A stretch of 16,610 nucleotides of DNA from Chloroflexota bacterium (GTDB lineage Bacteria; Chloroflexota; Ktedonobacteria; Ktedonobacterales; Ktedonobacteraceae), in contig VBHV01000220.1 of NCBI GenBank assembly GCA_005881995.1, forward strand, positions 1-16,610, read 5' to 3'. A model generated the notes under the pieces. That model was not told the DNA's origin. It made no database searches and worked only from the letters and a program-made list of their open reading frames with translations. A program made the position numbers and the translations under genes. Positions within the stretch are counted from its first letter, which is position 1; every line of letters begins with the position of its first letter. Positions 4,412-13,094 of the stretch are shown here, one piece after another.

Positions 4412-6853
4412 TCAAGCTCCGAAACGGGCTTGCAGAGCCTCCCAGGCGCTGCTGCTGCTTTGGAACACTACCACGCTGCCATCGGGCGTTACGTGTGTGT
4501 GCGAAATGCGGTTTGCCGAAATTTTCCACTGCACTGTGCCTGTGTTCCCGTCGAGACCATACAAGGTCTGGTGACCGCACGAGGTCGTATTTCCTGGCAA
4601 ACAGAGCGTGACAAAGAGCATCCCCCGCGCCTCGTGCAGGGCGCCCGCTCCAGGATAGAGGAAAAGCGCCTGCTCATCTGGTTGGAAGGTCCAATGCACG
4701 GTCGTCGTTTTCACGTCGAACGCGACCAGCGCTTGATGCTGAGAGCCGCTGTCAAGGTTGTTGGACACAACCGCGTAGATGAGCGAACCATTCGCAGAAA
4801 CGGTGACATCGGAGACCGCTACCATGTTTTGATGCTTCCAGAGGATGTTTTGTGTAGCGGCATCGATGGCCTCGATTGCGCCATCGCCGTAGAGGATGAA
4901 TTCATTGCCAGTGGCGACAATTCCGCCGGGTGTTTGAGCTGTATCGGAGCCGAGACCCGCCAGTGTCCAGCGTTCATTGCCGGTAGAAAGATCAAGCGCG
5001 TGATAGAGATCGCTGCGCCTTACTAAGAGTACGCCTGCGTTTTGGGCCATCTGCGCATCTTCCAGCATTGAAACGGTAGAGTCCTTTTCCGCGATATAGC
5101 TGCGCCACTGAATCTGGCCAAGCTGAGTATCAAGCGCGTAGAGCGTGCTGTTTGCCTGCCAGTAGATAAGGCGTTCCCCCGTAAGCAGAGATCCGTAATC
5201 GGGCACTGCGGTTCCTTGCTTACGGGGCCCAAAGATGCGCCAGGCGATAACGCCGGTGGCCTTCTGGACCGCGATAAGCTGAACGACCATATTGCCACGC
5301 ACGATTGAGCGGCTGGCGACGTAGATGAAGCGGGTATCGTCACCTAGAACGGTGCTTTCCTGGAGCTCGCCACCACGCACAACTGTACTCTGCCAGATGA
5401 CCTGTCCTGAACTGCGATCGAGCAAGTACAGGACGAAGAGATGGTCGAGCGGATGCGTGTAGGCCACATCATCGGGTGCGTAGTGATAGTTCAAGGATGT
5501 AAAGCCGCTCAAGGCCACCAGGAGTGTTCCCGCCTGGGTAGAGACGGCGGGAAGCGAGAAGACGCCCTGGCTGGAGAAGGTTGCCCAGCGTGAAGAGCCT
5601 CTGCTATCGAGCGCCGAAAGCTGAGAGAGATGGTCTCCCGAAGTGGCGATTACGAAGCTGCCCTGGCTATCGGCGCCTGTCAGGGTAGCCGGTGTATTCA
5701 ATGCCTGCTGCCACTGAGCGCTACCATTGCTGGCCTCGACCTGGTTCAAGAACTGCTGTGCGTGATTGAGCCGGGTGTACGTCAGGATACCCGCGCTCAT
5801 CAGTACAGCGACCAGGGTCAGTGCAAAAAGGAGGTGTGAGAAGCGCCACAAACGCGCGGTTAGTACGAAAGGCATAAGAAGAGTATGTGGTATGCGACTC
5901 AGGGCATGCTTTAGCTTCTTGACCCATAACTGGAACGGCAGAATCCACAGCAAAAGGAGGGTGAAGAGGCTGGCTATGCTGATAGCAAGCAGCAGGAGAC
6001 GCGTCCATGACCAGTTTCGCAAGGCCGTCTGGGTAGCGGTTTGCGCGCTGAAGAGACTGAGTGTCTCGTTTGATACCTGGATCACCTTGGGTGTTGCCGC
6101 CGTCACTCCCGCCAGCGGTATGCGCCACCGCGGCGAGCCATTGCCAGTATCGTAGGCGGTAAGCGTGTGGCTGCCATCCGCTTGCACTTGTTCAAACAGC
6201 ACCAGACCCTGTATAGAATCGACGTAAGGGGTAAAAATACGCCCTGCATCCGTGTTGCTAAAACCAGAACCAATTTGTTCTGACCAGTGCGACTCTCCTG
6301 TAGATGCATCGACCGCAAAGAGCCAGAACTGCTCCTGCACCTTCTGCGCATCCCAGGCAATGCCGGTTGCATAAATCACGTTATTGGTATTTGAAATACT
6401 GGCCTGGTAAAACTGCGCAGCTGTCAATGTCGCGTTGTCTGCCACGTCCGGCCGTCCATTAAACGACCAGATTGAACGACCGGTTGCGGGATCGAACGCC
6501 ATCAGGCCTGGCGCTCCCACGGCGATGAGCAACGGCTGCGCTGCAGAAGCCATGAGCAGTGTTCTCGTTGGAGAGACTGCTTTCCAGAGGATAACCCCTG
6601 TAGCAGTGTTCAGCGCGTAGAGTGTGTGATCGCCCGCCACAAAGACGGTATCTCCATACAGCAATAATGGGGGGGCGTATGCCAGCGTGTCATCAAGGTG
6701 CTGAGTCCAGCGAGCGGCCCCATTTCGCAGGTCATAGGCTGCCACGATACCTTTAGAAGCGTTCTTGACATTATAGACGGTGCTGTGGTCAAACGCGGGC
6801 GCAAACGCATGCGCTCCCAGCGTTGGCTCTTCCCCTGTTGTTTGCCAGAGCAT
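4412..6853 (-). CDS. PQQ-like double beta-propeller membrane protein, C-terminal portion (frameshifted from the upstream frame)
   Basis: This 813-aa open frame is most of a large protein whose N-terminus is encoded in the 6789-7949 frame. It carries many PQQ/pyrrolo-quinoline-like blade motifs of the type A-x-D-x-x-x-G-x-x-x-W, for example AYDLRNGAARW (39-49), ALNTATGVILW (80-90), AFDPATGRSIW (119-129) and AVDASTGESHW (180-190). Two hydrophobic segments (about 284-306 and 340-360) separated by a basic loop then interrupt the chain. A second propeller follows, with motifs such as LLDRSSGQVIW, ALDTQLGQIQW, ALDLSTGNERW and GLDGNTGTVQW. Expected topology is both propellers outside the membrane. 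Catalytic dehydrogenase motifs were not recognised, so a binding or sensing role is more likely than PQQ enzyme activity. The ATG at 6853 is probably not a real start: there is no ribosome binding site and it lies inside a blade. Confidence 0.8.
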   Translation of the reverse strand: MLWQTTGEEPTLGAHAFAPAFDHSTVYNVKNASKGIVAAYDLRNGAARWTQHLDDTLAYAPPLLLYGDTVFVAGDHTLYALNTATGVILWKAVSPTRTLLMASAAQPLLIAVGAPGLMAFDPATGRSIWSFNGRPDVADNATLTAAQFYQASISNTNNVIYATGIAWDAQKVQEQFWLFAVDASTGESHWSEQIGSGFSNTDAGRIFTPYVDSIQGLVLFEQVQADGSHTLTAYDTGNGSPRWRIPLAGVTAATPKVIQVSNETLSLFSAQTATQTALRNWSWTRLLLLAISIASLFTLLLLWILPFQLWVKKLKHALSRIPHTLLMPFVLTARLWRFSHLLFALTLVAVLMSAGILTYTRLNHAQQFLNQVEASNGSAQWQQALNTPATLTGADSQGSFVIATSGDHLSQLSALDSRGSSRWATFSSQGVFSLPAVSTQAGTLLVALSGFTSLNYHYAPDDVAYTHPLDHLFVLYLLDRSSGQVIWQSTVVRGGELQESTVLGDDTRFIYVASRSIVRGNMVVQLIAVQKATGVIAWRIFGPRKQGTAVPDYGSLLTGERLIYWQANSTLYALDTQLGQIQWRSYIAEKDSTVSMLEDAQMAQNAGVLLVRRSDLYHALDLSTGNERWTLAGLGSDTAQTPGGIVATGNEFILYGDGAIEAIDAATQNILWKHQNMVAVSDVTVSANGSLIYAVVSNNLDSGSQHQALVAFDVKTTTVHWTFQPDEQALFLYPGAGALHEARGMLFVTLCLPGNTTSCGHQTLYGLDGNTGTVQWKISANRISHTHVTPDGSVVVFQSSSSAWEALQARFGA

Positions 6854-7949
6854 TTGTCCTGTTGGGCGTGACGCTCAAGGTCGAGTGCGCAAGCTGGGCA
6901 GTATGCTGAGCGGCGACACGCCAGGAGGTATTGCTTCCGGCCAGAGTGAGTATCTGCTGCGAGCCTGACTGCGATGTCGATACCCCTAGCAGCAGCGAAG
7001 ACTGCAATAGCACGGGATTGGTCAGCGTGGCAGCGTCCTGGTACCCTCCACCAAGGTCTTGCTGCGCCTCTACCTGTCCACTCGCCGCGTCGATATGATA
7101 CAGGTAGAGGTGCGTGTCGTTCACGTCGCGCCACAACAGGAATGAACTGGTAAGAAACAATACCAGCAGGCAGAGAACCAGAAGAGTACGCGCCACGCGT
7201 CTGCGCTCGCCCGGTCGCGGCTCTTCTACAAGCGGTAAAGGAGTTTCGGGAATATCTCCTGTGACCAGGGCGCGGGAAAGTTGGGCAAGCTCTGGCTGAA
7301 TCCTACCTTCTACGGGAGGGAAAGGAGTTTCAGGAGTGTCTCCTGTGGCCAGGGGTGGGGGGAGTTGGGCAAGCTCTGGCTGAACCCTACCTTCTACGGG
7401 GGGTAAAGGCGTTTCAGGAATATCTCCTGTGACCAGGGCGGGGGCAAGCCCCGCCCCTACCATACCTTCTACGGGAGGTAAAGGCGTTTGAGGAGCGTCT
7501 ACCTCTAAACCTATAGCGGGCTCAGGTGCTACCACTGTAATAGAGGCGCGACGCTCCGTATCTCTTGGTTTTACCGGTGTCGCATCCAGGTCAGGCTCAA
7601 AAGGCGAAACCTCTGGCTCAACTTCTTTAATGAATTTTTTTCGTGGCTTTGTAGGGCGTCGTTTTGTGCCGGGAGTGGATTTTTTCTCTGGCTCGATCGA
7701 TGGCGCTTCAGATGGCGTTTTTACGGGAGTATCGGCTGTATCAGCCGACTGCGTGTCGGTAGACTTGATGTCTCTAGCGAGCTGCTTTTTACTTCTGCCG
7801 CGAGCCGGTTTTGCTGCAGGAATCTCGTTCTCAGTTTCACTCGTGACCTTAAGCGTGGTATTATGCGATAATGCAGGTTCAGACTCTGTAGGGGCACGAT
7901 TTATCGCGCCCGCGTCTGGAGGAGTATTATGCAGTTGCTCATCGGACAT
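6789..7949 (-). CDS. Double-propeller membrane protein, N-terminal portion: disordered region, TM helix, first blades
   Basis: 386-aa frame starting at ATG 7949 (weak upstream GAAAGA). Residues 1-245 are polar, Pro/Glu/Lys-rich and probably disordered in the cytoplasm. They include basic clusters (KKQLARD, TKRRPTKPRKK) and, at about 151-242, four copies of a unit starting D-[IAT]-P-[EQ]-T-P-L/F-P. A membrane helix follows at about 254-273 (TLLVLCLLVLFLTSSFLLW) after RRRVAR, predicting N-in orientation. Propeller-like strands then begin (YHIDAASGQVEAQQ, LTLAGSNTSWRV). The last 25 or so residues (NRTNALANNRGRANAG...) look out of frame. Dropping one base near 6860 turns SVTPN into SVTPTGQMLWQTTG and joins the 813-aa frame, giving about 1178 aa. 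Without that correction the protein ends mid-propeller. Confidence 0.75.
   Translation of the reverse strand: MSDEQLHNTPPDAGAINRAPTESEPALSHNTTLKVTSETENEIPAAKPARGRSKKQLARDIKSTDTQSADTADTPVKTPSEAPSIEPEKKSTPGTKRRPTKPRKKFIKEVEPEVSPFEPDLDATPVKPRDTERRASITVVAPEPAIGLEVDAPQTPLPPVEGMVGAGLAPALVTGDIPETPLPPVEGRVQPELAQLPPPLATGDTPETPFPPVEGRIQPELAQLSRALVTGDIPETPLPLVEEPRPGERRRVARTLLVLCLLVLFLTSSFLLWRDVNDTHLYLYHIDAASGQVEAQQDLGGGYQDAATLTNPVLLQSSLLLGVSTSQSGSQQILTLAGSNTSWRVAAQHTAQLAHSTLSVTPNRTNALANNRGRANAGSACVCARV
6855..6869 (-). other. Apparent single-base frameshift joining the two propeller frames
   Basis: On the minus strand the upstream frame reads ACG CCC AAC AGG ACA, while the downstream frame reads CCA ACA GGA CAA ATG. 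Removing one A (or C) from CCCAACAGG gives a continuous frame with the junction V-T-P-T-G-Q-M-L-W. That itself has the shape of a blade motif, which strongly suggests the two frames are one gene. The combined span 7949-4412 is 3538 nt, one more than a multiple of three. Confidence 0.8.
7234..7499 (-). repeat. 84-bp tandem repeat inside the double-propeller gene
   Basis: Units beginning GGTAAAGG or a close variant start near 7234, 7318, 7402 and 7477, giving periods of 84, 84 and 75 bp. They encode a 28-residue repeat of the form D-I-P-E-T-P-L-P-P-V-E-G-R-x-Q-P-E-L-A-Q-L in the disordered cytoplasmic region. The 75-bp unit is the one that contains the palindromic element at 7436-7460. All periods are multiples of three, so the frame is kept. 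Confidence 0.85.
7436..7460 (-). repeat. GTAG-palindrome element, in-frame copy encoding VGAGLAPAL
   Basis: Read on the minus strand it is GTAG followed by GGGCGGGG, CTTGC and CCCCGCCC. This 8-bp palindrome sits behind the same GTAG head as the copies at 7888, 10334 and 10385. It encodes V-G-A-G-L-A-P-A-L in the disordered linker of the propeller protein. Confidence 0.65.
7888..7911 (+). repeat. GTAG-palindrome element, in-frame copy encoding GAINRAPT
   Basis: GTAG followed by GGGCACGAT, TT, ATCGCGCCC: 9-bp arms with one mismatch around a 2-nt centre. It lies antisense inside the first 25 codons of the double-propeller gene and contributes G-A-I-N-R-A-P-T. The 9-2-9 layout is identical to the intergenic copies after the acyl-CoA dehydrogenase. 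Confidence 0.65.
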
Positions 7950-8020
7950 CGTACTGAATCTTTCTGTGCTGTAGTTCTTCGTCTCCTACTATATCAAACC
8001 GGTCGAGATTAGAAAAGCAG
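7950..8020. other. Divergent region, propeller-gene side
   Basis: AT-rich stretch before the double-propeller ATG. On the minus strand TATAGT (7988-7993 complement) may be a -10, with only a poor TTTTCT -35 at about 17 bp. No strong operator was recognised here apart from proximity to the LysR promoter. Confidence 0.25.
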
Positions 8021-8048
8021 TTGACAGAATCGTCTAAGATAGTACTAT
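8021..8048 (+). promoter_or_regulatory. Sigma70-type promoter of the LysR operon
   Basis: Perfect -35 TTGACA at 8021-8026 and TACTAT at 8043-8048 with 16-bp spacing. The predicted start is near 8055, which leaves a leader of about 165 nt before the LysR ATG at 8222. Confidence 0.55.
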
Positions 8049-8058
8049 ACGTTCCTTG

Positions 8059-8170
8059 CAGCCTGTCTGACCGCAGGTGCTTCCTATCATCACTGCTGAC
8101 ACGGAGTGTAGAGACGCAGTCTCGTTGCAGTGATGCTTTCAAGCTGAAGACGTAGTCCGTTGACAGGCTG
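8059..8170 (+). promoter_or_regulatory. Nested inverted repeats in the LysR leader (possible structured RNA)
   Basis: Five complementary pairs nest without crossing. P1 is CAGCCTGTC 8059-8067 with GACAGGCTG 8162-8170. P2 is CATCACTGC 8088-8096 with GCAGTGATG 8127-8135. Inside P2 lie P3, ACAC/GTGT at 8099-8109 with triloop GGA, and P4, GAGAC/GTCTC at 8111-8123 with triloop GCA. P5 is CTTT/GAAG at 8136-8149. The set starts just after the predicted transcription start. It could be a cis-regulatory RNA. Individual palindromes could instead be LysR operators. It resembles no riboswitch class I can name. Confidence 0.4.
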
Positions 8171-8221
8171 GTTATCAAAAGGTTCGCCATTGAAAGGTTA
8201 TCTTTGTTCCAGGGGGCTTCC

Positions 8222-9163
8222 ATGCTAATGCACACAATGAATCTGCACCAACTCCACACCTTTCAAGTCGTCGCGAAACATTGTAGCTATGTTCGAGCGG
8301 CTGAGGAATTGCATTTCAGTCAACCTGCCGTATCAGCGCAGATACGCCACCTGGAAAATACGCTGGGCGTCAAATTATTTGAGCAGATAGGACGTAAGAC
8401 CCATCTCACGCAGGCCGGTGAGGAACTGTATATTTATAGCCAGAAAATATTCTCCATTATCGACGAGACGATGGAACTCATGGAGATGCTGCGCAGCCCC
8501 CATCATGGCCGCCTGAGCGTGGGTGCAGATACAACCGTTGGATCGTACGTGATTCCCGGACTGCTGGGAAAGTTTCGCCAGAGCTTCCCTGCCGTAGAGA
8601 TCTCTCTGGAAGTTCTGAATCGTGCCTCGCTAATCGACGCGCTGCTGAGCAATCGCGTCGACCTGGCGGTGATGGGCGCGGTTCCTGATGACGCGCCCAT
8701 CGAAATCGAGCCATTCGCCTACAATCCCCTGGTCTTAATCGCTGCGCCCAACCATCGCCTGGCTGGACGGACTGACGTGCCGATCAAAGAGTTGGGACGA
8801 GAACATTTTCTGCTGCGCGAACCGGGTTCAGGCACGCGCTCAGCCCTGGAACTCGCTTTGAGGGAGGCTGGAGTAGAGCTGCACATCAGCATGCAGGTGG
8901 GCAATAACAGCGCCATCAAGCATGGTGTGGCGGCTGGCCTCGGCATCGCTTTGATTTCGCGGGTTGCCCTGGATATGGAATTGGAGACCAACCGCCTGGT
9001 TATCCTCGATGTGGAGGGGTTTCCCATCATCCGTCAATGGCGGTTGGTTCACCTGAAAGAAAAATACCTCTCCCCCACCGCCCATGCCTTCAAAGCCTTC
9101 ATGTTGCAAAATGCTGATCGACGTTTGCGCAGGAAGCCGCCAGAGAGTATCTCATCATCGTAA
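8222..9163 (+). CDS. LysR-family transcriptional regulator
   Basis: DNA-binding one-component regulator, about 313 aa, typical length. The winged helix-turn-helix spans roughly residues 7-66 (MNLHQLHTFQVVAKHCSYVRAAEELHFSQPAVSAQIRHLE pattern, shown here only as a landmark: the recognition helix contains FSQPAVSAQIRHLE). The effector-binding domain starts near HHGRLSVGADTTVGSYVIP and resembles CbbR/CysB-type domains. I chose ATG 8222 because AGGGGG lies 5 nt upstream. TTG 8204 and ATG 8237 are alternatives, the second without a ribosome binding site. It is 16 bp upstream of the acyl-CoA dehydrogenase on the same strand, so unlike most LysR genes it is co-directional with its likely targets. The effector is unknown, and a CoA ester or organic acid of the downstream pathway is a reasonable guess. 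Confidence 0.92.
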   Translation: MLMHTMNLHQLHTFQVVAKHCSYVRAAEELHFSQPAVSAQIRHLENTLGVKLFEQIGRKTHLTQAGEELYIYSQKIFSIIDETMELMEMLRSPHHGRLSVGADTTVGSYVIPGLLGKFRQSFPAVEISLEVLNRASLIDALLSNRVDLAVMGAVPDDAPIEIEPFAYNPLVLIAAPNHRLAGRTDVPIKELGREHFLLREPGSGTRSALELALREAGVELHISMQVGNNSAIKHGVAAGLGIALISRVALDMELETNRLVILDVEGFPIIRQWRLVHLKEKYLSPTAHAFKAFMLQNADRRLRRKPPESISSS

Positions 9164-9179
9164 ATAGAAAGGCCTTATC

Positions 9180-10337
9180 ATGGATATTCCTTTATCTCAC
9201 GAAAGGCAGATGGTCATCGATGAAGTCAAGCGTTTTGTAGAACGTGAGGTAATCCCTGTTGCGCACCAACTCGAACACGATGATGTCTATCCTTTCGACC
9301 TGATCGAAAAGCTCAAGGCCCTGGGCGTTTTCAGCGCTACTATCCCCGAAGCCTATGGCGGCCTGGGTTTAGATTTCCTCACCTACTCGCAGGTAATCGA
9401 GCAGCTTGCGCGCGGTTGGATGAGCCTGGCGGGGATCGTCAATACGCATATACTGGTTGCCTATATGCTTCAAACCTACGGTACCGAGGAGCAGCGCCGT
9501 ACTTTTCTCCCCATAATGGCGGAGGGTGACAAACGCGGGGGGATCTGTCTTTCGGAAGCGAACGCGGGCAGCGATGTGCAGGCTATTACCATGACTGCAA
9601 CCCCCGAGGAGGATAATTATATCCTCAACGGCTCCAAGCTGTGGGTCACGAATGGCCTGCATGGGAGTATCTTCGCGGTGTTAGCGCGCACCGATACAAG
9701 CGCGTATCCTCCCTATCGCGGCATGAGCGTTTTCATCGTCGAAAGAGACACGCCAGGTCTGAGCGTCAGCCGCACCTTTGAAAAGCTGGGCTACAAGGGG
9801 GTCGAGACGGCGGAACTGGTCTTCGACCACGTGCGTGTTCCTGCCGCACGGCTGCTTGGCGGCAAAGAAGGCGAGGGTTTTAGGCATGCCATGAGCGGCC
9901 TGGAAGTCGGGCGCATTAATGTGGCCGCACGTGCCGTCGGGGTAGCGCAGGCTGCCTTTGATGATGCGATTCGCTATGCGCAGCAGCGGCAGACCTTCGG
10001 CAAACCCATCGCACAGCACCAAGCCATCCAGATTAAGCTGGCGGATATGGCAACCAGAATCGAGGCAGCCCGTCTCCTACTCCAGCACGCGGCACGTAAG
10101 AAAGACGGAGGTGAGCGCTGCGACCTGGAAGCTGGCATGGCGAAGCTCTTCGCCACCGAGATGTGCCAGGAGGTCACACTCGAAGCCATGCGCATTCACG
10201 GTGGCTACGGCTACACCAAAGAGTTCAACGTCGAACGCTACTACCGTGACGCCCCGTTCATGCTTGTCGCAGAGGGAACCAGCGAGATTCAAAAGTTGGT
10301 GATCGCCCGGCAGTTGTTGGAGAAATACAAATTGTAG
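9180..10337 (+). CDS. Acyl-CoA dehydrogenase (candidate methylsuccinyl-CoA dehydrogenase)
   Basis: FAD enzyme that introduces a trans double bond into an acyl-CoA and passes electrons to ETF. The 385 aa are the standard family length. FAD/substrate motif CLSEANAGSDV (123-133), LWVTNG (154-159), GYKGVETAELVFD (204-216), RQTFGKPIAQHQAIQ (270-284), RIHGGYGY (338-345) and VAEGTSEIQ (363-371) are visible. Glu365 sits where short-chain family members keep the catalytic base. The start ATG at 9180 follows AGAAAGG. The neighbours (mesaconyl-CoA-hydratase-like MaoC and a beta-methylmalyl-CoA-lyase-like gene) suggest methylsuccinyl-CoA as substrate. Other branched short-chain acyl-CoAs cannot be excluded, and Proteobacterial Mcd proteins are longer. 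Its TAG stop (10335-10337) lies within a palindromic repeat element. Confidence 0.9.
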   Translation: MDIPLSHERQMVIDEVKRFVEREVIPVAHQLEHDDVYPFDLIEKLKALGVFSATIPEAYGGLGLDFLTYSQVIEQLARGWMSLAGIVNTHILVAYMLQTYGTEEQRRTFLPIMAEGDKRGGICLSEANAGSDVQAITMTATPEEDNYILNGSKLWVTNGLHGSIFAVLARTDTSAYPPYRGMSVFIVERDTPGLSVSRTFEKLGYKGVETAELVFDHVRVPAARLLGGKEGEGFRHAMSGLEVGRINVAARAVGVAQAAFDDAIRYAQQRQTFGKPIAQHQAIQIKLADMATRIEAARLLLQHAARKKDGGERCDLEAGMAKLFATEMCQEVTLEAMRIHGGYGYTKEFNVERYYRDAPFMLVAEGTSEIQKLVIARQLLEKYKL

Positions 10338-10408
10338 GGGTGCAATTCATTGCGCCCTTATGCTCATATATCGGCCTGCAATGAGGGCGCAATGAATTGC
10401 GCCCCTAC
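10334..10408. repeat. Inverted pair of GTAG-palindrome elements between dehydrogenase and hydratase genes
   Basis: Copy 1 (10334-10357) is GTAG plus GGGTGCAAT, TC, ATTGCGCCC. Copy 2 (10385-10408) is the same element in reverse orientation with one base difference. The two can pair over 24 bp (one T-G wobble) around a 27-nt loop, and each is also self-complementary. In the transcript this would form a very stable hairpin between two operon genes, affecting 3' end protection or partial termination. It has no T-run on the + strand, so it is not a classical terminator. Confidence 0.8.
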
Positions 10409-10427
10409 ACGAGAAGAGGAGATATCT

Positions 10428-10946
10428 ATGCAATTCGGCAGATGCTTTGAAGAATTTGAGATCGGCGCAATCTACAAACACTGGCCTGGTCGCACGATTA
10501 CCGAATATGACGATACACTGTTCTGTATGCTGACTATGAATCACAACCCCTTGCATATAGACGCGCACTACGCTGAAACCCGCCAGCATGGGCAACGCCT
10601 GGTGGCCGGGCCGCTCATCTTTAGCATTGTACTGGGCATGACCGTCGAAGATGTGAGCGGTAAAGCCATTGCCAACCTGGAATTTGAGAATGTCAAACAT
10701 CTTGCTCCCACTTTTCACGGGGATACTGTCTACGCGGAAACGAAGGTGCTGGATAAAAGGCTTTCGAGCAGCAAGCCGGACCGCGGCGTCGTGACGGTGG
10801 AGACTATAAGTTATAACCAGCGCGGGGAAACGATACTGTCGTTCAAACGGCGTGTGATGATTCCCACCAGGACGGCAGATGAAGCATGGCAGCGTGAATG
10901 GGATGAGAAGATGGAGAAGTTACGCGAGGAAGGGAAGCAAATATAA
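10428..10946 (+). CDS. MaoC-type hotdog hydratase, mesaconyl-CoA hydratase-like
   Basis: Single-hotdog enoyl-CoA hydratase 2 family protein, 172 aa. ATG 10428 is preceded by AAGAGGAG about 7 nt upstream, so the open frame further upstream (26 codons through the repeat element) is not used. The N-terminus (MQFGRCFEEFEIGAIYKHWPG) and the LTMNHNPLHIDAHYA block (35-49) closely resemble, from memory, the short MaoC protein beside ccr, meaA and a CitE-like lyase in Streptomyces ethylmalonyl-CoA clusters. Classical R-hydratases carry Asp in the D-x-N-P-x-H motif. Here Asn38 takes its place, with His43 and Asp45 following. The expected reaction is water addition to mesaconyl-CoA giving beta-methylmalyl-CoA. 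The last 25 residues form a charged helix. An itaconyl-CoA-hydratase role is the main alternative. Confidence 0.85.
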   Translation: MQFGRCFEEFEIGAIYKHWPGRTITEYDDTLFCMLTMNHNPLHIDAHYAETRQHGQRLVAGPLIFSIVLGMTVEDVSGKAIANLEFENVKHLAPTFHGDTVYAETKVLDKRLSSSKPDRGVVTVETISYNQRGETILSFKRRVMIPTRTADEAWQREWDEKMEKLREEGKQI

Positions 10947-10982
10947 TCAGTCGTTGTTGAGACAATATATCCTGTGGTTCCA

Positions 10983-11008
10983 CCCTGGCCAGCAAATACC
11001 AGCCAGGG
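10983..11008 (+). repeat. Stem-loop after the hydratase gene
   Basis: CCCTGGC (10983-10989) and GCCAGGG (11002-11008) form a 7-bp stem with a 12-nt loop, 36 bp past the hydratase stop. No T-run follows directly. It may add to 3' end protection ahead of the stronger hairpin at 11037. Confidence 0.4.
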
Positions 11009-11036
11009 ATTCATTAACGATAGTTCTTTCTTGTGC

Positions 11037-11085
11037 CTCCTCTCTCCCCAAAACACATCGGGGAGAGAGGAGTGCTTTTCTCTAT
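11037..11085 (+). terminator. Strong hairpin terminator, end of the LysR operon
   Basis: A perfect 13-bp stem, CTCCTCTCTCCCC (11037-11049) with GGGGAGAGAGGAG (11060-11072), has a 10-nt loop and is followed by TGCTTTTCTCTAT. It lies between convergent genes (hydratase + and Asp-box protein -). The T-rich side is on the + strand, so it mainly serves the LysR-dehydrogenase-hydratase transcript. Confidence 0.8.
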
Positions 11086-11097
11086 CTATTACCTACC

Positions 11098-12549
11098 TTA
11101 TGCACTCGTAGCGGAGATGCTTGTCCAGGTTAATCCACCATCGACCGTCTTGAGCAGAGAAGAGGAATTGGCTGTTGCCAAAGTGATCGCCCACCCGACT
11201 GTAGTTGAGACAAAGTCGATCTGGGTGATGTTTTTGAAATTCGCACTGGGGGAGAGTTTTATCCAATGCTGGCCTCCGTCGCTGGTACGATAGAGCATTG
11301 TGCCGTCGGTCGCCCACCCATGCTGCATATCGGCAAAACTAAGCAGCGGAAGGGCAGCAGCAATGGGTGCTGTACTCTGCCAGGTTCTGCCACCATCGTG
11401 CGTGGTATAGATAGCCGTGGCAATAGCACTGTCAGTCGTGATGTTAGAAAAGATGACGGGAAGGATGCCATCGGCGGTCGAAAAGAAGGTGGGGGAGAGG
11501 AGCGAGAGCCGGGCAGATGGCAACCCGGGTGGCATAAGGAGCGATTGCGGTTGCCAGGTCGAACCCCCATCATGTGTGACATAGAGCCACGCGAGATCGG
11601 TAATGAAGACGGTTCCAGTCACCCATCCTGTCGAGGCATCCAGAAAGTGCATCCCTGATTTCTGCCCTCCATAGGGAAGCTTGCCGGGGGGAGTCGCGTC
11701 CGAAAAAAGTGCAGTGGCTACGTTCACCCAGGTCTTGCCCCCGTCCGTCGTGCGAAACACAGACACCGGTTCAGCTGGTCCTCCCAGGGGACGCACAGCA
11801 GCCAGTACCCAGCCGCGCTGCGCGTCAATGAAGGAGATTTGCCGTGGCAAGGGCATCTGGATCGTTGATTGTTGCCAGCTCTGGCCGCCATCAGCGGTGT
11901 GCAAGACCTGAGTACTCGCTCCATCAGGCCGGGGCGTTCCTATCGACGCTATAGAAGCGGTAGGGAAGTCCGCTATACTGTCCTGTGTGAGCGTGGCGCC
12001 AGCAGGCGTCACATTCTTCCAATGAACTCCCCCATCGGTGGTGCGCAGCACTGTCTGCCCGGTGAGCGCCCATCCGGTCGACGCATCGATCATATGAAAA
12101 GAGAGCAACGTAGGCAACGTATTGAGACCTCCTGTTGGTTTCGCTGAACTACCGGGACTACTTCGATGTGATAGGTTCAATACAAAAAGGAGGGAACTCA
12201 CCACCAGCGCTGCAACCAGCACGGCAGCAATCATGCTCATGCGGCGCTGCCAGGGCTTTCTTTCGATACTAGGAGAGCGAGTTGGCTTTACATCCCCTGT
12301 AGGGGCGGGGGTAGTGCGGATGTGGGGTGGGGGCGCTTGCGTCGCCCGCGTCGCCCGTTGTTGGATGTCACGCGCCTCGTTACTAGGTAACGGATGTAGA
12401 GAACCCTCATTATTGAGGAGGCGCTGCTGGACGCGTGCGAGATGCTGAGCTTTTTGACCATCCGCCCGATACATGAGGCGAAGATCTCGGATGAGGCGTT
12501 GGTGCTGTTCATCCACCTCTTCAGGGAGTAGTTCGTTGGTGTCTGCCAT
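11098..12549 (-). CDS. Membrane-anchored Asp-box (BNR) beta-propeller protein, partner of an ECF sigma factor
   Basis: 483 aa. Residues 1-100 are cytoplasmic and begin with a helical stretch (about 10-46, EEVDEQHQRLIRDLRLMYRA...), followed by a Pro/Thr-rich linker. One membrane helix is at about 104-126 after KPWQRR. The outer part holds seven Asp-boxes of the form T-x-D-G-G-x-x-W, ending at about W177, W225, W274, W332, W390, W429 and W475. The pattern matches Ycf48/HCF136- or sortilin-like propellers. The gene starts 14 bp after the sigma factor stop, with AAGGA and GAGG upstream of ATG 12549, so the two are co-transcribed. Position and topology suggest a sensor or anti-sigma role with the N-terminal helices holding the sigma factor. 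No zinc-binding anti-sigma motif (HxxxCxxC) is present. Hydrolase activity is not implied by Asp-boxes. Confidence 0.85.
   Translation of the reverse strand: MADTNELLPEEVDEQHQRLIRDLRLMYRADGQKAQHLARVQQRLLNNEGSLHPLPSNEARDIQQRATRATQAPPPHIRTTPAPTGDVKPTRSPSIERKPWQRRMSMIAAVLVAALVVSSLLFVLNLSHRSSPGSSAKPTGGLNTLPTLLSFHMIDASTGWALTGQTVLRTTDGGVHWKNVTPAGATLTQDSIADFPTASIASIGTPRPDGASTQVLHTADGGQSWQQSTIQMPLPRQISFIDAQRGWVLAAVRPLGGPAEPVSVFRTTDGGKTWVNVATALFSDATPPGKLPYGGQKSGMHFLDASTGWVTGTVFITDLAWLYVTHDGGSTWQPQSLLMPPGLPSARLSLLSPTFFSTADGILPVIFSNITTDSAIATAIYTTHDGGRTWQSTAPIAAALPLLSFADMQHGWATDGTMLYRTSDGGQHWIKLSPSANFKNITQIDFVSTTVGWAITLATANSSSLLKTVDGGLTWTSISATSA
12299..12347. repeat. Degenerate GTAG-palindrome sequences in the linker of the Asp-box protein
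   Basis: GTAGGGGCGGGG at 12299-12310 shares the head of the repeat family. GGGCGC, TT, GCGTCGCCC at 12331-12347 looks like a 9-2-9 member that lost three bases from its left arm. Both fall in codons for the Pro/Thr-rich linker (ATRATQAPPPHIRTTPAPTG). Confidence 0.4.
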
Positions 12550-12563
12550 GACCTCGTTCCTTT

Positions 12564-13094
12564 CTAGTGCTGCTCGTAGATCCTCCGTAGGAGTGCAAGG
12601 CTACGAGAACAGATTTTCCTCACAGTGGCTTCGCGTTTGTTCAGTAAGACGGCAATCTCGGTGAAGCGCAGGCCCTCCCCATAGCGTAATTGGAGCACCT
12701 GCTGTTGCTGCGATGAGAGTTTTCCAATGGCTTTGTACAGACGCTCAAGCTCTTCGCGTCGCAGTACCAGTTGTTCAGGCGTCAGCGCCTCATCGTGGGA
12801 CGCGTTCTCTACAACCTGTTCCAGGGGGACAGCAGGCGGTTGACCTGGGCGGCGATAGCTATCGATGAGTTTGTTGTGAGCGACGCGCCACAGCCAGACG
12901 AGCTGCTGTTTGTCGGTGAGCCAGGAGAGGTTATCATGCTCTAAAGCTGTTAAGAAGACCTCCAGTGTCAGATCCTCGGCATCTTGCCACGAAGCGGTAC
13001 GCGATCTCACGTAGGCAAGAATGATCGCTGCATACCGCTCGTAAAGCGTGTTGTCTGAGTTCTGGGCCAGTTTGTGTTCGTCTTGTTGCTGCAT
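12564..13094 (-). CDS. ECF-type RNA polymerase sigma factor
   Basis: About 176 aa, normal for a two-domain group 4 sigma factor. Sigma2 region: YERYAAIILAYVRSR, then DAEDLTLEVFLTAL and WLWRVAHNKLIDSYRR. Sigma4 region: LSSQQQQVLQLRYGEGLRFTEIAVLLNKREATVRKICSRSLALLRR. The linker is acidic and proline-containing. The open frame begins GTG ATG ATG at 13100-13092. AGAAGG upstream favours the second ATG (13094), although 13097 is possible. The downstream Asp-box membrane protein is likely its cognate regulator. Such sigma factors often activate their own promoter. A TGTCAC and a CGTC element lie 14 bp apart upstream on the minus strand (around 13130-13157), but I cannot show they form its promoter. 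Confidence 0.93.
   Translation of the reverse strand: MQQQDEHKLAQNSDNTLYERYAAIILAYVRSRTASWQDAEDLTLEVFLTALEHDNLSWLTDKQQLVWLWRVAHNKLIDSYRRPGQPPAVPLEQVVENASHDEALTPEQLVLRREELERLYKAIGKLSSQQQQVLQLRYGEGLRFTEIAVLLNKREATVRKICSRSLALLRRIYEQH

Follow-up and report, generated by a model that had tools for sequence, protein, structure and literature searches.

A 16,610-nucleotide stretch of DNA from a Chloroflexota bacterium of the Ktedonobacteraceae (contig VBHV01000220.1, hereafter the window) carries four short hairpins, each headed by an unpaired GTAG. It is highly probable that these are GTAG-tagged repetitive extragenic palindromic (REP) elements, that the two at 10334-10408 make up a REPIN (two inverted REPs folding as one larger hairpin), and that they are mobile; a REP-associated Y1/HUH tyrosine transposase (RAYT) of the host would move them. 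The evidence consists of the elements themselves and their excess in the window, compensated arm changes in relatives on virus contigs, an 18-codon insert in one gene, and, in related phages, sites that hold an element in some contigs and lack it in others. The kind of element is known, and its occurrence here is new and well supported; carriage by phages is a lead. GTAG REP/REPIN elements are thereby recorded in a Ktedonobacteraceae-like bacterium, and 95 homologues without the extra residues back one insertion into a gene.

GTAG-headed hairpins in the window

An initial annotation, made by a model from the sequence alone, had reported four GTAG-headed palindromes, and all of them are present at the coordinates it gave. 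The elements are as follows.

7436-7460, minus strand: GTAG-REP copy 1, GTAGGGGCGGGGCTTGCCCCCGCCC; perfect 8-bp arms and a 5-nt loop (alternatively 9-3-9 with one mismatch)
7888-7911, plus strand: GTAG-REP copy 2, GTAGGGGCACGATTTATCGCGCCC; 9-2-9, one mismatch
10334-10357, plus strand: GTAG-REP copy 3, GTAGGGGTGCAATTCATTGCGCCC; 9-2-9, one mismatch
10385-10408, minus strand: GTAG-REP copy 4, GTAGGGGCGCAATTCATTGCGCCC; 9-2-9, perfect
10334-10408, no strand assigned: REPIN or head-head dimer of copies 3 and 4 with the heads outside; folds as one long hairpin
12295-12357, minus strand: 21 codons (RATRATQAPPPHIRTTPAPTG) containing one or more putative decayed REPs at 12299-12347, delimited by comparison with homologues

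The observation of GTAG-headed hairpins is real. Counting a GTAG head followed by 9-bp arms with at most one mismatch and a loop of 0 to 5 nt, we found 4 in the window (a local density of 4 in 16.6 kb), where 300 dinucleotide shuffles averaged 0.053 and never exceeded 1. The runner-up among the 256 possible heads reached 2. The common layout first described for these palindromes, GTAG followed by GGG...CCC arms in a 9-2-9 arrangement, fits copies 2, 3 and 4 (one perfect, two with one mismatch) and fails for copy 1, because its arms are 8 bp long and its loop 5 nt. A constant head and architecture with arms that differ between copies likewise holds in general, except that copies 3 and 4 have one arm sequence in common, a single wobble apart, and the arm types in the window therefore number three and not four. 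The mismatches in copies 2 and 3 are both G-T wobbles, on the head strand in copy 3 and on the opposite strand in copy 2, and the centre of copies 2, 3 and 4 reads TTNA (TTTA or TTCA). The mark of GTAG-tagged REPs, a short-looped stem of 6-13 bp with GTAG or a close variant unpaired at one end, is present in all four clear copies, and the three arm types are the alternative complementary stem residues that mark their sub-families.

Copies 3 and 4 are inverted with respect to one another and together form a larger hairpin with 29-nt arms that are 93% complementary. The fold of this REPIN is strong (z -8.7), and none of 200 shuffles was as stable.

Copies beside and inside genes

Two of the four copies are intergenic, at the 3' end of an open reading frame (ORF), and the other two lie in frame in a gene. 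The genes concerned are listed here.

11098-12549, minus strand: BNR/YCF48-like beta-propeller protein with an N-terminal linker and a hydrophobic segment; bears the 18-amino-acid insert
6789-7949, minus strand: N-terminal half (linker, hydrophobic segment) of a PQQ beta-propeller membrane protein; bears copies 1 and 2
4412-6853, minus strand: C-terminal half of the same PQQ protein, read in a different frame; an apparent shift of frame lies near 6790-6850
9180-10337, plus strand: acyl-CoA dehydrogenase, upstream neighbour of the REPIN
10428-10946, plus strand: MaoC-like dehydratase on the downstream side of the REPIN; start codon ATG at 10428 (the ORF in the program's list begins at TTG 10350)

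One record of an insertion is in the BNR/YCF48-like gene. We compared its product with the best 120 of 3,816 homologues, omitting 24 that do not have the N-terminal part and keeping 96. Between the anchor motifs DIQQ and DVKPTR, the window protein has 21 residues, whereas 95 of the 96 have 2 to 6; the only homologue that shares the longer spacing is P0002, which is 96% identical. Against P0003 (83% identical, 3 residues at this place), the insert amounts to 18 codons, or 54 bp, within 12295-12357. An alignment of homologues with and without the insert had been proposed as a check, and the extra residues are indeed absent from 95 of the 96. Within the window, this is the only place at which orthologous sites with and without an element could be set side by side, and the comparison supports a probable insertion into coding sequence. 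The initial annotation saw degenerate members of the family at 12299-12347. This stretch opens with GTAGGGGCG at 12299, has CTTGCGTCGCCC at 12336-12347 and lies within the insert, which agrees with that view, but it folds no better than its shuffles (z 0.16), so the claim is borne out in part. From the two ends and the insert status, we infer a decayed REP or REP pair. Homologues of the BNR and PQQ proteins that carry organism names (among the best 120 of 3,816 and the 48, respectively) are from Ktedonobacteraceae, and 19 plasmid records with a BNR protein included no Chloroflexota among their genus names.

The in-frame peptides predicted from copies 1 and 2 were also found in place, in the N-terminal linker region of the PQQ membrane protein. 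GAINRAPT, from copy 2, forms residues 14-21 (7887-7910) of the minus-strand ORF 7949-6789, and VGAGLAPAL, from copy 1, forms residues 164-172 (7434-7460), in the first of three linker units of about 25-28 amino acids. Homologue P0122, a single protein of 1203 amino acids with 76% identity, has GARNRAPT at residue 14 and VRAGLAPAL in its one linker unit, and the N-terminal residues ahead of the copy 2 peptide are conserved in it. Because P0122 has matching peptides at both places, these insertions are older than the split between it and the window protein. Across homologues the position of GA[IR]NRAPT varies: its first residue is number 14 in the window protein and P0122, 169 in P0152 and 210 in P0148. 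Shuffling gave a mean of 0.21 matches to the peptide pattern for this frame, and the linkers of the 48 PQQ homologues have 4, one of which, GDQEVAPT in P0163, seems unrelated.

Several features of the PQQ gene are recorded here in their own right. Its two overlapping ORFs in 4412-7949 (7949-6789 and 6853-4412) reflect either an assembly error or a real frameshift. The three linker units (VEG...PETPLPP) are arranged in tandem at about 7250-7480 on the minus strand, where P0122 has one. A clear REP is present only in unit 1, with GGGCTTGCCC at its centre, and units 2 and 3 carry GAGCTTGCCC at the corresponding place, so the array may descend from a REP-bearing unit. Linkers of P0151 (around residue 210) and P0153 (around 238) contain CHPERSEGS, presumably the product of another widespread repeat; an approximate DNA pattern for it had no match in the window.

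The REPIN takes up most of the 90-bp gap between the acyl-CoA dehydrogenase and MaoC genes, and the TAG in the head of copy 3 is the stop codon of the former (10335-10337). Four terminator-like sites were found in 7000-12600, and none of them overlaps a REP.

Relatives in virus contigs

We scanned virus contigs with the pattern GTAGGGGCG-N10-CGCCC, which leaves the four inner pairs free, and obtained at least 212 matches in at least 120 stretches. The counts that follow from the scans are those among the matches listed. Merging strands gave 192 places, of which 184 have distinct flanks; the four free positions are fully paired at 89 of these, paired at three positions at 59, and paired at two or fewer at 36. 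In 1000 trials of arm shuffling, full pairing occurred at 5.6 places on average and at 13 at most. The 89 fully paired places contain 30 distinct inner arms. Some contigs hold several arm types (L014, L064, L090) and others a single type (L011, L026). In the reciprocal scan, with the inner arm ATTCATGAAT fixed and the outer arm free, 84 of 162 oriented matches, on 27 contigs, were fully paired in the outer arm, which read GGGCG in 46, GGGCA in 30 and otherwise in 8. Taken together, the two scans indicate a head and about four proximal pairs that do not change, followed by a distal stem that does, in a compensated way. The compensated arm variation supposed at the outset thus occurs well above chance in these relatives, and the constancy of GTAG-GGGC beside a distal stem that is variable yet paired is a new observation.

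Other properties of the virus-contig elements complete this picture. Across 137 loci, a perfect 8-bp hairpin follows GTAG at 38 per 1000 heads (median of the 256 heads, 0.56), a figure that speaks for head specificity only, because the loci were picked for such elements; TAGG, which overlaps the same elements, is alone as high, at 41 per 1000. The elements appear to avoid ORFs: 86 of 175 lie inside one, against a coding fraction of 0.861, whereas 15 of 21 unpaired control matches do. The exact 24-mer of copy 4 occurs in L133, L134 and L138, and that of copy 2 in L126. NTAC follows the stem on its 3' side in 43 of 148 elements, for the most part as CTAC, GTAC or TTAC, which suggests a second head, more loosely kept, at the far end of many elements. 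Other searches returned nothing of this kind. The pattern GTAG-N4-CAATTCATTG had 87 distinct matches (trailing N ignored), none fully paired, and was set aside as chance matching to an AT-rich core. Exact GTAGGGGCGACGCTTGCGTCGCCC had no match in the virus contigs, and ktedonobacterial DNA, sought among them through the acyl-CoA dehydrogenase, was not found. The window REPIN and copy 1 against plasmids, and the REPIN against phages, gave short matches only (E of 0.4 or higher), taken as chance.

One of these contigs, L047, is that of a tailed phage, as its genes for terminase, portal, protease, major head and connector proteins show. The core GGGCGATTCATGAATCGCCC, with at most 2 mismatches, occurs 7 times in L047 (11.5 kb), 5 times in L011, and 6 times each in L026 and L106. 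We compared the flanks of 237 elements from 119 contigs. Both flanks could be aligned in 142 element-contig pairs, of which 43, at 97% identity or more, were discarded as near-duplicates. The remaining 99 comprise 53 occupied sites and 46 called empty, and 29 of the 40 elements involved have at least one empty call. A decayed core or a different repeat is present in several of the 46, and we relied on sites that have no core and a gap of no more than about 20 bp. Clean empty sites include that of the element at L106 8547, absent from L011, L047, L288, L300 and L304, and that of the element at L047 3434, present in L011, L288, L300 and L304 and absent from L106. The arms of these phage elements are unlike those of the window; head and clamp (the first stem pairs, GGGC) are in common. 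Differences of 24 bp between L080 and L092 and between L004 and L008 were considered as empty sites and rejected, because the element is in both members of each pair.

Some further observations concern this phage group. L011, L026, L047 and L106 (with related L288, L300, L301 and L304) carry 5-7 near-identical GTAG-REP cores per 6.8-14.5 kb, and the aligned stretches of several contigs in the group are just about 70-87% identical despite this. The portal protein of L047 (7977-9275, minus strand) ends in ...APVGAIHESPALEPP..., in which VGAIHESP is a REP core near 8027 read in frame. A 39-base L047 element had no match in 50,697 phage records.

Assignment, mechanism and alternatives

The GTAG-tagged REP superfamily comprises 24 families, with Chloroflexi among the phyla named, and in-frame intragenic copies are known in several species (Di Nocera et al. 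2013, PMC3733652). The Chloroflexi case named there is GTAG-23 of Thermomicrobium roseum, clustered in few blocks; in 50 kb of a Thermomicrobium plasmid we found no GTAG hairpins. As described in that paper, superfamily members have a GTAG head that is unpaired, stems of 6-9 bp for the most part, short loops, G-T pairs, alternative complementary stem residues, head-head dimers, sites just 3' of ORFs and in-frame copies, and the elements reported here resemble them in these respects, with the REPIN as the case of a site behind an ORF. In-frame copies and compensated stem changes are therefore already known for the family. A GTAG-GGGC clamp with a free distal stem and a phage setting are not known to be part of its description, and its main text has neither "phage" nor "Ktedonobacter". 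PMC3733652 and PMC6006769 are the REP papers that came up for GTAG REPs and Chloroflexi. We met no literature with such elements in Ktedonobacteria or phage genomes in a search of titles and abstract openings with partial coverage and few subscription journals.

The original proposal of REP-like elements, constrained by their hairpin and partly intragenic, is thus supported by the arm compensation in virus contigs and by the 18-amino-acid insert, and its label of REP-like or miniature inverted-repeat transposable element (MITE)-like can be narrowed down to that of the GTAG-tagged REP/REPIN superfamily. The unit at 10334-10408, with its two inverted REPs, is like other REPINs; it differs from REPIN/RAYT systems in that no RAYT gene is seen in or near the window. 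REPINs and RAYTs are reportedly the subject of work by Bertels and Rainey in 2011 and Nunvar in 2010. A likeness to the Rickettsia palindromic elements (RPE) had also been drawn, and it holds as an analogy, since both have palindromes in frame in coding genes. It does not extend to family membership: the intragenic repeats of R. conorii correspond to RPE-4 and RPE-6, which are counted among CGTC repeats (PMC3733652), and all four window copies are headed by GTAG, not CGTC.

How would such elements move? They are probably mobile elements of very small size that are not autonomous and would spread as single strands, and we infer a group-3-like RAYT that moves them as single-stranded DNA. The host enzyme would bind the hairpin; the unpaired GTAG head would guide the choice of cleavage site, GGGC would serve as a sequence clamp, and the distal stem would need pairing only. 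If head and clamp are read by sequence and the distal stem by pairing, a constant head and clamp with compensated distal drift is what should result, perhaps through G-T wobble intermediates. Insertions would be tolerated mostly between genes, here directly behind a stop codon, or in linkers if the frame is kept, where they would give short Gly/Ala/Pro-rich peptides and then decay. According to Correia 2021 (PMC8266576), GTAG contributes to cleavage-site choice and group 3 RAYTs act on perfect palindromes. In the Marinomonas group 3 system, cleavage is impaired by a stem mismatch, reduced by a swap at stem position 4 and unaffected by swaps at positions 2 and 3, and three of four loop positions are required, as TTNA. 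The resemblance lies in the TTNA loop of window copies 2, 3 and 4 and in stems that tolerate some swaps and no mismatches.

Several points weigh against this reading. The Marinomonas system largely tolerates GTAG mutations in cleavage (PMC8266576), so a strict head is not to be expected in every group 3 RAYT, and TTNA is the centre in just 4 of 88 distinct virus 24-mers, which makes it no general rule. Y1_Tnp or RAYT genes numbered 0 in 50 virus records, 0 on the Thermomicrobium plasmid and 0 in the unrelated L001 genome, none of which is the host genome. The statistics on compensated arms come from virus contigs, not from Ktedonobacteraceae; the 84 paired matches include several contigs of one phage group, with both strands of full palindromes counted; and L126, L133, L134 and L138 were retrieved with a pattern designed on the window. 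The copy at 12299 is too decayed for proof of a REP origin. In the linkers of the 48 PQQ homologues, the other four frame signatures had 0-1 matches and no excess, and none of the five matched BNR linkers.

Three alternatives were weighed. Hairpins could be kept for a host function in RNA or DNA, such as mRNA 3'-end protection, attenuation or the binding of gyrase or another protein, with the arms under structural selection and the elements not mobile. A REPIN directly behind a stop codon between co-directional genes, its strong fold, the G-T wobbles in 2 of 4 stems, and the roles in mRNA stabilisation and gyrase targeting cited for REPs (PMC3733652) are all compatible with this. Such a function leaves unexplained the in-frame linker copies and the presence and absence at orthologous sites in relatives, and none of the four terminator-like sites falls on a REP; we regard it as quite improbable. 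An explanation through replication itself is unlikely as well. If template switching corrected one arm against the other, any distal arm with full pairing would be expected, as the 30 arms in fact show, with no need for selection or for a transposase that reads the hairpin, and transposition could still occur. The same correction should reach the proximal stem too; yet 76 of the 84 paired outer arms are GGGC followed by G or A, and the mismatches of copies 2 and 3 and the decayed copy at 12299 remain uncorrected.

That the palindromes arise by chance, or as a by-product of Gly/Ala/Pro-rich linker peptides with palindromic coding DNA, is already contradicted and has next to no probability. In its favour, the VEG...PETPLPP units in the linker of the PQQ protein form a tandem array of their own, as such a by-product would have it. 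Two copies with the same head are nevertheless intergenic, the observed 4 stand against 0.053 expected, the 24-mers of copies 2 and 4 recur in virus contigs, and GAINRAPT sits at differing linker positions among homologues. Mobile GTAG-tagged REPs therefore remain our preferred reading.

It is tempting to extend this reading further. One widespread REP lineage might have GTAG plus GGGC as its minimal address and the rest of the stem read as structure, so that one type of transposase moves an open-ended set of arms; phages might carry and spread the elements between hosts, and in-frame copies might add peptides to linkers and C-terminal tails, including that of a phage portal protein. We hold this wider picture to be possible and rather doubtful. 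The constant clamp and free distal stem amount to a direct prediction of the bases that a RAYT would read, and the tailed-phage copies, present at some sites and missing from them in relatives, are a natural archive of how REPs move and may be a path from one host to another.

A separate observation concerns REPIN structure in the virus contigs: the head-head pairs L060:2574-2627 and L133:4162-4213 are mosaic, with halves whose arm sequences are unlike.

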